Below are positions 24,525 to 29,345 of a stretch of 42,133 nucleotides of DNA, in pieces. Made by a program: the position numbers and the translations under genes. The notes below the pieces were generated by a model. The model saw only the letters and a list, made by a program, of their open reading frames with translations. It was not told the DNA's origin and made no database searches. Location: NCBI GenBank assembly GCA_016219925.1, contig JACRJU010000008.1, positions 1 to 42,133 of the forward strand, in the 5' to 3' direction. How positions within the stretch are numbered: position 1 is the stretch's first letter; each line of letters begins with the position of its first letter. This DNA comes from Candidatus Uhrbacteria bacterium (GTDB lineage: Bacteria > Patescibacteriota > Patescibacteriia > UBA9934 > GWF2-40-263).

Positions 24525-24548
24525 AAAAAAAAGACCGCTGTTGCGGTC
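24525..24548 (-). terminator. Terminator of the PRPP-synthetase-like cassette
   Basis: On the minus strand GACCGC pairs perfectly with GCGGTC around AACA (plus 24533-24548), followed by eight Ts. It begins at the stop codon of the gene at 24547 and is convergent with the VUT gene. Confidence 0.9.
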
Positions 24549-25641
24549 AAGTGTTCTCGATACCGCGCGTCTCGCGGACATCGAACCCCCAGTGCACGTT
24601 GTAGATCACCCATGCCGCATCATCGCGCCAGGACAGCACCCGCAACCGTCCGGATTCAAGCAACGGACGAAGCTCCAAACGAAGCTCCGGTGGAATGGTG
24701 TCCATGATGTAAAGCCGAGCGATGAGCGAATTCGGCGCGGCGAACAACGTTGGAGCGTTTGCACAGAGCACTCCGTGCGTCACCGCCGACCAGATTTCAC
24801 GCGCTCCAACGTTGTGTAGCTGTTCAGCGGCTTTCATCTGTGTGACTCCGCTGGCTGTCTCATCATCCAGCTGAATCACCAAGGCGCCATCTACCGCGTC
24901 TAGATCCCCGCCGATCCCATCGATCGTTTTACGCTCGGCATCCACCCGATCGGCAGAGGCGTAGACGATCTGTAGATTCTGCCCCAGATCCTTCCTCAAC
25001 TGCTTCAAAGCTGCTTTGAAACGCTTACGCGCCGAAGGGTCTGGAAACGCGAGCACGACCTTATCGGAGACGGCTTGCGCTTCTTGGTACACGTGTTTGA
25101 GCAGGCGATAGGTGAGCCACACTGGCGTGATGAGGCCCGTATGACCGACCATCGTGCTTTGATCCGAATGCGGATCCAGACACACGATGCGACGAAGCAA
25201 TCCTTGCGAAAGAACCAGCCACTTGGTCACCAAGATGGGCGGGATGGCGAACACATTGTGCTCGTCCCGATCCGAGCGTCCTTGGGGGAAGTAGCCGAAC
25301 ACGATCGTGATGCGCGAAGCCTTGTGCCCAGCCAGATAGGCGAGCAGATAGTCCATCTGCCCAGTCATCTCATAGGTCCCGGGACCGCTGGCTAGGACGA
25401 ACACATCGTGGGCGTCGAGGTGACGTTTCCCGAAGACGAGATACGGCTCGCCACTCGGACGAAACTTGAACGTGGGGATGGCCACATCAACGGGAGTTCG
25501 GTATTCCCCGTCTCTATTACTCTTTTCCAGGATCAAACCTGCCAGCTCCTCGGCGCGCGATTCGAATCCCGGCATCGGAACGAGCGTGAGGCCACCGTGT
25601 CTACAAAACGGATCCCCATTCCTGTCCAATTGCGGCTCCAT
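24547..25641 (-). CDS. Ribose-phosphate pyrophosphokinase-like protein, divergent
   Basis: This 364-residue protein aligns by eye with PRPP synthetase over most of its length. Matching parts are ASRITIVFGYFPQGRSDRDE (compare the ITAVIPYFGYARQDR region), IVCLDPHSDQ with the conserved His, and VIQLDDETASGVTQMKAAEQ, the PRPP-loop region, followed by EIWSAVTHGVL. The loop differs from the usual VDDMIDTGGT, and there is a longer N-terminus and an extra C-terminal stretch. Normal PRPP synthetases are about 315 residues. It may make PRPP or use the fold for another pyrophosphoryl reaction. The gene has its own promoter (25671-25699), GGAGGAG before the ATG, G+C-rich codons, and a terminator at its stop. 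Confidence 0.8.
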   Translation of the reverse strand: MEPQLDRNGDPFCRHGGLTLVPMPGFESRAEELAGLILEKSNRDGEYRTPVDVAIPTFKFRPSGEPYLVFGKRHLDAHDVFVLASGPGTYEMTGQMDYLLAYLAGHKASRITIVFGYFPQGRSDRDEHNVFAIPPILVTKWLVLSQGLLRRIVCLDPHSDQSTMVGHTGLITPVWLTYRLLKHVYQEAQAVSDKVVLAFPDPSARKRFKAALKQLRKDLGQNLQIVYASADRVDAERKTIDGIGGDLDAVDGALVIQLDDETASGVTQMKAAEQLHNVGAREIWSAVTHGVLCANAPTLFAAPNSLIARLYIMDTIPPELRLELRPLLESGRLRVLSWRDDAAWVIYNVHWGFDVRETRGIENT

Positions 25642-25735: not shown

Positions 25736-25806
25736 CAGACGTCGCGGTCTGCAACGCGATTGCGTCAATCGGATCATTTCGGCTGCCGTAGCCGATGGAG
25801 TTCGTC

Positions 25807-27597
25807 ATGTTTTCGTTCTCGCGCCATCTCATCCTCGTCCTCGTTCTCCTCTTCGCCTGTCCACTCTGGACGTCCGCGTGCTCAACGGATAGCGAAGTCG
25901 TTGGTCCAACCGGACCGACCCTCGTGACGGATGGGTTGGGTCTCGAAGTCCCAACCCAGCCCGACGCGGCTAGCAACGAAACGCCTGTCGCCGATGCCGC
26001 ACTCGACAACGTCGAAGACACGGAACTTCCTGACGCTCCCACCGAGGTCAGCGCCCAGGACGCTCCTGAAGTCGACACCGCACCAGCCTGCACAAACAAG
26101 GAGGATTGCGACGACAAGAACGCCTGCACGGAGGATGGATGCAACCAGCTCACCGGGCAGTGTGCGCACGTCGTCCAGATCTACTTTTCGTGCGACGACA
26201 AGAACGCCTGCACGCAGGACGATCGCTGTAACGAACAGGGCGAGTGTCTGGGCAATCAGAAGACGTTGTGCTTCGACGGGAATCCCTGCACCCTCGACAC
26301 CTGCGACAAGAACGGCGGCTGTGTCTTTTCCAACATCGACGTTCCGTGCAACGACAACAACGCGTGCACGAATGACGATCAGTGCCAAAACGGCGCGTGC
26401 GCTGGAGTTCCTATCGTCTGCGACGACAAGAACCCCTGCACGGCTGATACGTGCAACCCCAAGACAGGCTGCGTCTTCCAGCAGGAGAACAATGTCCCCT
26501 GCGATGACAACAACGCCTGCACCAGCGCGGACCAGTGTGCTTCGGGCATCTGCAAAGGCTCGCCCATCAACTGCGGGGATGGAAACAGCTGCACCGTTGA
26601 CAGCTGCGACAAGCAGAGCGGTTGCTATTCGACGCCGGCCGTAAACAACACAACCTGCTCGGACGGCGACGGTTGCACGCTCAAAGACGTTTGCATTGAC
26701 TCAGTGTGCAAGTCGGGCGCCAAGAAGAACTGCGACGACAACAACGTCTGTACGAACGATGCCTGCGATTCCTCGGACGGCCAATGCCTCCATGAGGTTC
26801 TGCCGGGCATCCACTACTGCGACGACAACAATGCCTGTACCAACACGGATACCTGCAAGTTGGGGGTCTGTACGGGCAAGATCGTCCAGTGCTACGACGG
26901 CAACGACTGCACGCTCGACACCTGTGACATGAAAGCGGGATGCCTTTTCCTGGCTCAAGACAAGGCTCCCTGCGACGATGGAAACAAGTGCACACTCGGA
27001 GACATCTGCGCCCAGACCAAATGCGAAGGCAAGGTGATCTCCTGCGATGATGGCAACGTCTGTACCAACGATACGTGCGACCCGGCGGTCGGGGCCTGCA
27101 ACCATACCGCCGCCACAGGCTACTACTGCAATGACGGAAACGCCTGCACGATCGGCGACGTTTGCGAAGGGGCCACATGCGTTGGCAAAACCCTGGCCTG
27201 CACGGACGGCAATCCGTGTACGGACGACAGCTGCAACCCCAAGACTGGATGCTTCTTCGTCCCAACGCCCAACGCCCCGTGCAACGACGGCAACTTGTGT
27301 ACGAAAGACGACATCTGCAACCAGAGCGTCTGCGTAGGCAAACCGATCTCGTGCGATGACAGCAACTCGTGCACGCTCGACTCATGCGACAAGACAACCG
27401 GCGTTTGCCAAAACGTCCAACTCAAGGACGGCTACGCCTGCAACGACGCCGACGCGTGTACCTACGGCGATTCGTGCAGTGCGGGCAAGTGCGTCGGGAT
27501 TGTCAACGACTGCGACGACATGGACAAGTGCACGAAGGACGCCTGCAATCCCCAAACTGGGAAATGCGTTCATGCGCAAATCCCCAACTGCTCCTAG
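25807..27597 (+). CDS. Secreted Cys-rich repeat protein with alternating CTDC-type modules
   Basis: The product is exported: residues 1-25 (MFSFSRHLILVLVLLFACPL then WTSAC) form a signal peptide, with Cys18 or Cys25 as a possible lipid anchor. After a linker of about 70 residues rich in Asp, Thr and Pro, the rest is 19 short modules. They alternate strictly between CxDxxxCTxDxC and CxDxxxCTxxDxC, ten of the first and nine of the second. They resemble the Dictyostelium CTDC repeat also seen in myxobacterial surface proteins, as I recall. The many Asp and Asn residues suggest calcium binding, and the Cys pairs suggest disulfides. I start at the ATG at 25807 because GGAG lies six bases before it. 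The protein has 596 residues. A role in attachment is inference. Confidence 0.85.
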   Translation: MFSFSRHLILVLVLLFACPLWTSACSTDSEVVGPTGPTLVTDGLGLEVPTQPDAASNETPVADAALDNVEDTELPDAPTEVSAQDAPEVDTAPACTNKEDCDDKNACTEDGCNQLTGQCAHVVQIYFSCDDKNACTQDDRCNEQGECLGNQKTLCFDGNPCTLDTCDKNGGCVFSNIDVPCNDNNACTNDDQCQNGACAGVPIVCDDKNPCTADTCNPKTGCVFQQENNVPCDDNNACTSADQCASGICKGSPINCGDGNSCTVDSCDKQSGCYSTPAVNNTTCSDGDGCTLKDVCIDSVCKSGAKKNCDDNNVCTNDACDSSDGQCLHEVLPGIHYCDDNNACTNTDTCKLGVCTGKIVQCYDGNDCTLDTCDMKAGCLFLAQDKAPCDDGNKCTLGDICAQTKCEGKVISCDDGNVCTNDTCDPAVGACNHTAATGYYCNDGNACTIGDVCEGATCVGKTLACTDGNPCTDDSCNPKTGCFFVPTPNAPCNDGNLCTKDDICNQSVCVGKPISCDDSNSCTLDSCDKTTGVCQNVQLKDGYACNDADACTYGDSCSAGKCVGIVNDCDDMDKCTKDACNPQTGKCVHAQIPNCS

Positions 27598-27600
27598 GTG

Positions 27601-27637
27601 AGCGGCTTGGTTACGACCCAGGCCGTTTTTTTATTCT
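27601..27637 (+). terminator. Terminator of the first Cys-rich gene
   Basis: GCGGCTTGG pairs with CCCAGGCCG with a bulge (27602-27625) and is followed by TTTTTTTATTC. It begins three bases after the TAG stop. Confidence 0.8.
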
Positions 27638-27715: not shown

Positions 27716-29308
27716 ATGCGCTCTTTTCTCGTTCTCCTCATCTGCGGCTTGTTGATGGCCTGTACGGACGCATCGTCGAGCCAGACTCCTCCCACCACAG
27801 TTCTCGACACCATCGCCACGTATGACGCTTCCCCGGGAATGGCCGAGACTCATCAAGACGCGGACAGTCTCCAAGACCAGTGGAGTGACGCCTTGATTGA
27901 ACCTGGTGACTTCGGCTCTCCTTGTCTAGGGAACAGCGACTGCAACTCAGGCTTCTGCATCGAAGCCTCGCAAGGGAAGGTGTGCTCGCGCGCCTGTGTC
28001 GTTGACTGTCCGTCGGGATTCCAGTGCGCGAACGTCTCCGCGACGGGACCAGACGTGCTCTACATCTGCGTCTCCCGTTTCGTCCGACTGTGCGACCCAT
28101 GCAAACAGCACAGCGACTGCAACGCGCCAGGCACCGCCGGAAATCTCTGCGTGAGCCAAGCGAGTGCGGGGAGCTTCTGCGGAGTCGCCTGCCTACCCAC
28201 GCAGAATGACTGTCCGACCGGCTACACATGTCAACTCTCCACAGACGCCAAAACCGGCGTGAGCTTGATGCAGTGTTTGCCAAAGGGTGGAGCCTTGTGC
28301 ACCTGCTCGCCGCGGGCGACCCTCTTGGGCCTCTCAACCGCCTGTGCCAACAAGAACTTCTACGGAACATGCGCGGGCGAACGCACCTGCACCGTGCAGG
28401 GACTCACCAACTGCATCGGACAAATCCCGGACGTCGAAACGTGCAACAACCTCGACGACAACTGCGATGGCCAGATCGACAACGTCGATGCCTCGTTTTT
28501 GGGAAGCGCGTGCAAGCGCACGAGTCTGTTTGGCACCTGCACAGGCAAGGTCATGGGCTGCGCGAAAGGATCTCCCATCTGCGACGCTCCCGAACCAACC
28601 CCCGAGGCCTGCAACGGCATGGACGACAACTGCAATGGGGTCACGGACGAAGGCCTCTGCGACGACGGCAACGAGTGTACAACCGACGCGTGTAACACCG
28701 ACGGTTCGTGCAAGCACACCAAGCTGACCGGAACCGCTTGCAACGACCAAAACGTTTGCACCGCCTTCGACCAGTGCGCGTCCGGAGTGTGTCTGGGAGG
28801 AAGCCTTCTGGACTGCAACGACAACGACCCGTGTAGCATCGACTCGTGTGATCCCTTCACGGGGTGCAAGCATCTCCCTGCTTCGGAAGGAACATGCGCG
28901 GACGATGGCAACGCCTGCACGCAAGATGTGTGCAAGGCTGGATCCTGTACCCATCCCAGCATCAAGGATGGAGCTCCGTGCGCGACTGATGGCGAAGTGT
29001 GCACGACGGACATCTGCAAGTCCGGAGCGTGCGAACACCTTGCCAACACAGTCGCGTGCAATGACGGAAATCCCTGCACGCTCAACGACACCTGCAAGGA
29101 CAAGACCTGCTCCGTCTTTGTTCCAAAAGTGTGCACGGACAACAATCCCTGCACGCTCGACGAATGCGATCCCAAAATCGGGTGTGTGTTCAAACCCAAT
29201 CCTTCATGGAAGGACGGGGCGCCCTGTCCCGACGATGGCAACGCCTGTACCGACGACATCTGCAAAGGATCGACGTGCGCGCACGTCCCGATCCCCAACT
29301 GCAACTGA
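27716..29308 (+). CDS. Cys-rich lipoprotein with MopE-like and CTDC-type repeats
   Basis: The start at 27716 gives MRSFLVLLICGLLMAC, a clear lipoprotein signal with the lipobox LMAC, so the protein should be anchored on the outer face of the membrane. It has 530 residues. After a Ser/Thr/Asp linker come a Cys-rich part (CLGNSDCNSGFC), then two MopE-type metal-binding motifs (ETCNNLDDNCDGQIDN and EACNGMDDNCNGVTDEG), then about eight CTDC-type modules such as CDDGNECTTDAC. MopE-type motifs bind copper or calcium in known proteins. The frame from the GTG at 27665 is longer but lacks a binding site and would spoil the signal peptide. It is a relative of the gene just upstream and likely came in with it. 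Confidence 0.85.
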   Translation: MRSFLVLLICGLLMACTDASSSQTPPTTVLDTIATYDASPGMAETHQDADSLQDQWSDALIEPGDFGSPCLGNSDCNSGFCIEASQGKVCSRACVVDCPSGFQCANVSATGPDVLYICVSRFVRLCDPCKQHSDCNAPGTAGNLCVSQASAGSFCGVACLPTQNDCPTGYTCQLSTDAKTGVSLMQCLPKGGALCTCSPRATLLGLSTACANKNFYGTCAGERTCTVQGLTNCIGQIPDVETCNNLDDNCDGQIDNVDASFLGSACKRTSLFGTCTGKVMGCAKGSPICDAPEPTPEACNGMDDNCNGVTDEGLCDDGNECTTDACNTDGSCKHTKLTGTACNDQNVCTAFDQCASGVCLGGSLLDCNDNDPCSIDSCDPFTGCKHLPASEGTCADDGNACTQDVCKAGSCTHPSIKDGAPCATDGEVCTTDICKSGACEHLANTVACNDGNPCTLNDTCKDKTCSVFVPKVCTDNNPCTLDECDPKIGCVFKPNPSWKDGAPCPDDGNACTDDICKGSTCAHVPIPNCN

Positions 29309-29311
29309 CCG

Positions 29312-29345
29312 GTCCCCATGACGTGTGGGGATTTTTCTTTTTGAG
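29312..29345 (+). terminator. Terminator of the second Cys-rich gene
   Basis: GTCCCCA pairs with TGGGGAT (29315-29331) around TGACGTG and is followed by TTTTCTTTTTG. It is convergent with ribH. Confidence 0.85.

Follow-up and report, generated by a model that had tools for sequence, protein, structure and literature searches.

A strictly alternating array of two four-cysteine module types in a probably lipid-anchored protein of Candidatus Uhrbacteria

Cysteine-rich tandem repeat proteins have been described from several distant organisms. The CTDC proteins of Dictyostelium are matrix proteins, some of which act as signals (PMC4931340), and the Cys-rich region of Myxococcus TraA (TIGR04201), whose resemblance to PF00526 was noted, has been proposed as a rigid stalk for cell-cell contact (PMC3325183). 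The eggshell protein CREMP is built from two types of four-cysteine module, in strict a-b alternation in some sequences and in all-a or a-b-b order in others; it forms fibres, and an a-b-a-b fragment with eight disulfides, folded in buffer with 1 mM EDTA, was a well-ordered, anisotropic protein (PMC3068167). The Cys-rich region of the Entamoeba lectin heavy chain HgL consists of four-cysteine pseudo-domains of 20-35 residues, joined first to fourth cysteine inside and by the second and third to neighbours; as worded, C3(i) pairs with C2(i+1), the second binding the previous domain and the third the next (PMC12948311). Among CPR bacteria, Peribacteria have large Cys-rich extracellular proteins of ~1,655 residues with signal peptides, proposed for attachment and weakly similar to Myxococcus Cys-rich repeats, and one disulfide-formation protein was noted there (PMC4736985). 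Given the Dictyostelium, TraA, CREMP and Peribacteria precedents, the type of protein, the two-type alternation and the idea of attachment are already known, while the open-licence literature yielded no description of the b module or of the ba grammar, nor of the rules for capping and co-loss given below.

The present study analyzes two adjacent genes, A and B, in a 42,133-nucleotide stretch of DNA from Candidatus Uhrbacteria bacterium (contig JACRJU010000008.1), hereafter the window. Gene A is the ORF at 25807-27597 (+), encoding a signal, a Cys-free spacer and then 19 four-cysteine modules that continue to the protein's last residues (Table 1). Its start at 25807 is preferred over an in-frame ATG at 25795 on account of a GGAG seen by eye a few bases upstream of 25807. 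When the cores are called by non-overlapping parsing the module order is a(ba)9, with core lengths of 12, 13, 12 ... 12 residues, 0/19 exceptions, and the formulas CxDxxxCTxDxC (a, 12 residues) and CxDxxxCTxxDxC (b, 13 residues) holding in the gene, which confirms the strict 12/13 alternation of the initial annotation. For 10 a and 9 b modules the fully alternating order is one of C(19,9) = 92,378 and was matched by 0/2,000 shuffles, figures that are no true test of independence because duplication relates the modules to one another. The array divides naturally into units of b then a (51-54 residues, n=9, 26191-27594), with a single a module ahead of them. Pfam matched the protein to Dicty_CTDC (PF00526) at 243.8 bits against a gathering cut-off of 27 (E 6e-74), NCBIfam gave no family match, and in the PF00526 genome search at E<=0.001 the a modules were reported in 10/10 cases and the b modules in 0/9. 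No tip, adhesive or receptor domain was recognised in the Pfam scan, and gene A reads as a pure array.

Table 1. Features of genes A and B (positions in the window).
Feature	Position	Strand	Basis
Lipoprotein-type signal of gene A, MFSFSRHLILVLVLLFACPLWTSA/C; lipid-acceptor Cys is residue 25	25807..25881	+	Sequence; same kind of signal in L108-L110; Lgt and LspA in genome
Asp/Ala/Pro/Thr/Glu-rich, acidic, Cys-free spacer from anchor to array, residues 26-94	25882..26088	+	Sequence; similar spacers in orthologues
N-cap motif C-x5-C1, Cys residue 95; proposed partner C3 of module 1	26089..26106	+	Motif recurs where a C2-less module interrupts other arrays
Module 1, type a	26107..26190	+	Module parsing
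b-a unit 1, 52 residues	26191..26346	+	Module parsing
b-a unit 2, 51 residues	26347..26499	+	Module parsing
b-a unit 3, 52 residues	26500..26655	+	Module parsing
b-a unit 4, 54 residues	26656..26817	+	Module parsing
b-a unit 5, 51 residues	26818..26970	+	Module parsing; AlphaFold2 fragment 26818-27441 begins here
b-a unit 6, 52 residues	26971..27126	+	Module parsing
b-a unit 7, 51 residues	27127..27279	+	Module parsing
b-a unit 8, 53 residues	27280..27438	+	Module parsing
b-a unit 9, 52 residues, with C-cap Cys residue 595 (27589-27591); proposed partner C2 of module 19	27439..27594	+	Module parsing; trailing-Cys parity in complete arrays
Terminator-like hairpin 3' of gene A, 11 pairs then T-run	27600..27628	+	Consensus match only
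Gene B, encoding another lipoprotein-type protein (MRSFLVLLICGLLMA/C) with a Cys-rich N-terminal part, a short CTDC array and two sub-threshold MopE-like metal motifs	27716..29308	+	Sequence, Pfam; orthologues adjoin A in L108, L109, L110
Terminator-like hairpin 3' of gene B	29311..29333	+	Consensus match only

Gene A shares with the Dicty_CTDC proteins (PF00526; EcmA/EcmB, PsiA/PsiF, PdiA) a signal, Cys-rich tandem repeats and the HMM match (PMC4931340, PMC4406040), but is bacterial, probably lipid-anchored and without PA14, and contains b modules that the PF00526 model does not report. Cys-rich tandem repeats are likewise common to gene A and the TraA stalk, yet a TraA-type receptor identity was rejected, PA14, TIGR04201 and MYXO-CTERM all being absent in Pfam and NCBIfam scans at E<=1. 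The published CREMP spacing, C-X4-C-X5-C-X8-C-X6, is close to the C2-x4-C3-x5/6-C4-x8-C1-x5 of gene A; however, the two types of CREMP module are told apart by the linker (6 or 11) and those of gene A by both the C2-C3 loop and the linker, and CREMP arrays are highly uniform whereas that of gene A is diverged. The Peribacteria proteins, compared by description only, are larger than the gene A product and have no module grammar described.

Whether alternation is a rule was addressed over 4,837 parsed modules, transitions being counted between clean neighbours only. The closest proteins outside the phylum were mostly from Myxococcales and other deltaproteobacterial MAGs. Strict alternation occurs in some arrays (L021, 29 modules; L022, 38; L028, 47; L038, 35; L074, 15), others have aab order or are all or nearly all a (L078, L079, L081, L084), and CPR arrays cover the same range of alternating, aab and all-a. 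Alternation is thus strict in gene A and in some arrays but is no general rule of the family. Clean transitions were ba 1361, bb 47, bc 3, ab 1366 and aa 530, so that a followed b in 1361/1411 clean cases (96%), whereas a was followed by b or a. The linker after C4 was 8-10 residues long in 99% of a-to-b transitions, 6-7 in 94% of b-to-a and mostly 6 in a-to-a. Judging from these sequences, b is a dependent module that stands in front of a, its loop type coupled to linker length. As b is nearly always followed by a, the building block is the b-a pair, and arrays of PF00526 are built from 'ba' and 'a', gene A using only 'ba' past module 1. The two-module structural unit first proposed for this gene is supported accordingly by the family, and the random mixing of module types that would have spoken against it, sought among myxobacterial and CPR homologues, was not seen, b occurring almost only before a. 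L193 (an ORF on the - strand) has many copies of a third form of module, whose C2-C3 loop is longer and rich in Gly (e.g. CTGAGGSDVC), at regular intervals between a modules.

In the same family, three species that belong to another genus (L108, L109, L110) carry adjacent orthologues of A and B, to which the window proteins are ~48-52% (A) and 52-61% (B) identical. The lengths of the b-a units of gene A, 52, 51, 52, 54, 51, 52, 51, 53 and 52, are identical in 9/9 units in L109 and differ only in the last in L110, and unit i of gene A mostly finds its best match in unit i of the orthologues. L108 is one unit short but its alternation is intact, the change of number having preserved the two-module unit. 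Inside gene A the b-a units have 35-56% of residues and 58-76% of bases in common. The ninefold array of the initial annotation is thus a set of nine diverged b-a units whose order and lengths are kept in another genus, and the DNA-level alignment it proposed for tracing duplication points to an old array. Order and lengths kept across genera mean that the ordered array either existed before the genera diverged or was transferred between them in its ordered form. A unit-length signature common to gene A and myxobacterial proteins was not found, save for a weak partial match in L061.

Patterns of cysteine co-loss were used to approach disulfide pairing, counted with a template parser, as counting by HMM was too noisy owing to the one-residue shift between a and b. 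Clean co-loss within a module affected C1 and C4 in six cases, while between neighbours C2(i) and C3(i+1) were lost together three times and C3(i) and C2(i+1) never; the C2(i)/C3(i+1) co-losses stem from all-a arrays, not alternating ones. Single losses of C1 or C4 were counted often but reflect variant spacing to a good extent, so the case for C1-C4 rests on the clean examples. An ordinary module came next after 0/30 C2-less modules, as against 3296/4155 of those bearing C2 (Fisher p 4e-21), a p value to be taken as a guide and no proof, since the modules are related and the C2/C3 cases only three. Rather, the 30 C2-less modules were followed by at least 10 new C-x5-C starts (an extra Cys five residues before C1), by two C3-less modules under the strict pattern (a third, in L079, was read by eye) and by two array ends; several fall in the 'other' class, with variant starts next. 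Seventeen apparently C3-less modules after a C2-bearing module were discarded, reading by eye having located C3 further off in longer loops, as were several apparent losses of C4 and the next C1, which were also longer loops with the cysteines kept. In complete arrays ending in a C2-bearing module the number of trailing cysteines was odd in 37/39 and zero in 0/39. The 78 extracellular cysteines of gene A after the lipobox fit 2 x (19+18+2), i.e. 39 bonds, exactly, and the 70 of L108 fit 2 x (17+16+2), i.e. 35 bonds. Taken together these patterns imply that bonds would run C1-C4 within a module and C2(i)-C3(i+1) between modules, with the N-cap Cys predicted to pair with the first C3 and the last C2 with the C-cap Cys. 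C2-less modules followed by a fresh C-x5-C start were observed in L078, L079, L081, L084, L120, L142, L161 and L166, and look as if they were built in to divide a single protein into disulfide chains that are each closed separately.

AlphaFold2, run on a four-unit fragment with 79 sequences, returned pLDDT 96.2 and pTM 0.67, with one beta-hairpin predicted per module and a turn tighter in b than in a. For the whole array the values were pLDDT 88.0 and pTM 0.35, and this combination of high pLDDT with low pTM gives confidence in the modules while leaving the overall course, rod shape and length not established by the model. The structure prediction suggested at the outset, run here on the protein, yields confident hairpin modules. 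In the PDB nothing matched by sequence, Entamoeba HgL included (sequence at E<=1; two profiles at E<=1 and E<=10). By Foldseek only the Entamoeba Gal/GalNAc lectin heavy chain lay below E 0.001 in the PDB, in five entries (9gja-9gjg), matching the full array at E 7e-7 to 4e-5, prob 0.92-0.99 and TM 0.07-0.12, with the next match at E 0.8; a viral fold library gave no match at E<=0.001. Over all queries TM was 0.07-0.21 and rmsd very large; low TM-scores are to be expected of a bent rod, and the HgL match is therefore local only. The C1-C4 bonds inside and C2/C3 bonds between neighbours described for the HgL arm are close to the scheme predicted here for gene A, but their stated direction is the reverse of the C2(i)-C3(i+1) proposed, and the lectin, which also comprises further domains and a light chain, has no sequence match to gene A.

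A lipobox-type signal is present in 4/4 orthologues (gene A and L108-L110), those of L108-L110 ending in SAC, CAC or AGC followed by S and an acidic or polar residue. The export signal whose absence would have weighed against the initial annotation is therefore there, in gene A and throughout the orthologous set, and the gene A product is probably a lipid-anchored surface protein. The genome encodes Lgt and LspA for lipoproteins and, for disulfides, two VKOR and three DsbA-like Thioredoxin_4 proteins, making both a lipid anchor and oxidative folding feasible. The source assembly is 0.87 Mb at 93% completeness, against ~0.7-1.6 Mb for the listed relatives and phylum-mates, bearing out the small genome expected of an ultra-small organism and in keeping with membership of the CPR/Patescibacteria.

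On the reading that we favour, and hold to be moderately probable, gene A encodes a lipid-anchored, disulfide-chained rod which with B would act at the cell surface as a stalk or matrix protein, its likeliest role being contact or attachment. The product would be exported and anchored by lipid, its folded part a single rod of 19 four-cysteine beta-hairpin modules, daisy-chained from C2 of one module to C3 of the next and closed by C1-C4 inside each, with the extra cysteines ahead of module 1 and past module 19 predicted to close the ends. The alternating C2-C3 loop (4 or 5 residues) and linker (6-7 or 8-10) probably set a fixed geometry along the rod. The disulfide-linked rod of the initial annotation is well supported in this form, its bonds and fold being drawn from cysteine coevolution and the AlphaFold2 models. 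That A and B serve a small-genome, probably epibiotic bacterium in contact or attachment is a guessed step, and the contact fibre a plausible one.

An alternative explanation for the alternation could be recent tandem duplication of one b-a unit, giving a by-product of no structural meaning. Tandem arrays do spread in this way, L108 is one unit short, and arrays that do not alternate exist. Against this, divergence among the units of gene A is 44-65% at the protein level and 24-42% at the DNA level, unit order and lengths have been preserved across genera, two b modules hardly ever stand in succession, and the loop type goes with linker length over ~4,800 modules. Recent duplication is largely refuted by the divergence of the units and their order kept between genera, and we consider it very improbable. 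It is possible, if on the unlikely side, that A and B are matrix or coat proteins like EcmA/EcmB or CREMP, stiffening the surface or an S-layer with no role in binding cells. The pure array without a tip domain, the matrix proteins of Dictyostelium with PF00526 (PMC4931340) and the fibres and ordered, anisotropic fragment of CREMP (PMC3068167) are consistent with such a coat, whereas the patchy presence of the family (4/60 relatives) would be odd for a basic coat component and a long, lipid-anchored rod is well suited to reaching out from the cell. Distinctly unlikely, in our view, is a calcium-dependent adhesin or metal sponge, in which D3, N5 and D10/11 with backbone would form a putative site in each module. 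Position 10/11 is occupied by D in 91-94% of modules and position 5 by N in 55-77% (the search pattern itself called for D or N at position 3), and gene B carries MopE-like metal motifs that fall short of the Pfam cut-off, but conserved Asp and Asn can equally cap turns and the CREMP fragment, with a similar Cys pattern, folded in 1 mM EDTA (PMC3068167).

Extending the favoured disulfide-chained rod to the family, CTDC arrays could be one ancient interlocked disulfide rod made of an N-cap, modules and a C-cap or C2-less stop, with b only before a, used by CPR and myxobacteria, shared by descent with slime-mould matrix proteins, the Entamoeba lectin arm and CREMP, and exchanged among CPR as a two-lipoprotein cassette for host-contact stalks. 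This wider proposal is offered tentatively and as a whole is rather doubtful. PF00526 is known only as a 'slime mold repeat', with no solved structure found by sequence here, and the co-loss rules would link it structurally to the arm of a major adhesin of amoebae.

Gene B scored 77.8 bits for Dicty_CTDC (PF00526) against the cut-off of 27 in the Pfam scan, and has its own lipobox and a Cys-rich N-terminal part of a different kind. It also aligns at full length with the myxobacterial protein L061 (38% over 576 columns). Separate terminator-like sites lie behind A and B, so that an operon is only a possible arrangement. In the window the pair lies between a prs-like gene and ribH, whereas in the other genus it lies between murC and murB-raiA-secA (genes named by sequence, order shared by blastp). 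The gene adjoining A, at 24547-25641, is a divergent phosphoribosyl-pyrophosphate-synthetase-like gene barely over the Pfam cut-off. At E<=0.001 PF00526 was present in 4/60 genomes of close relatives (the source genome included), 39/381 of the class and 19/380 of the phylum. Codons ending in C are used more in both A and B than in their neighbours (in A, GAC 59/78, AAC 44/52, TGC 66/80; in the other genes, 119/305, 96/171 and 29/51), and GC3 is 77 in A and 73 in B, as against 50-57 in most neighbours and 67 in the prs-like gene. High use of C-ending codons and high GC3, with the patchy presence and the changed site, suggest recent transfer of the A-B pair, or else unusual codon selection. The pair would make a compact, probably mobile candidate surface contact device, with lipoprotein and disulfide machinery in the same genome and attachment only a candidate role. 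In another family of the class, long-array and short-array CTDC lipoprotein-like proteins stand side by side (L129:4024-7183 and L132:2-4379), and pairing of the A-B type may be general among CTDC proteins.

The co-loss rules offer predicted pairings for a repeat that is patchy across one small-genome phylum and occurs a great many times within single genomes of myxobacteria or deltaproteobacteria. Up to ~3,000 first-look CTDC candidates were seen in such single genomes (G752-G761, behind L078, L079 and others). Many CTDC proteins of myxobacterial type also occur on CAMDBH01 contigs (L015, L023, L027, L063, L064, L075) of a MAG titled Klebsiella pneumoniae, a label that is probably wrong. Within the phylum of gene A, G532:C1 ~130000-149900 (L200) holds an open frame that is 7,015 residues long and has matches to CTDC.
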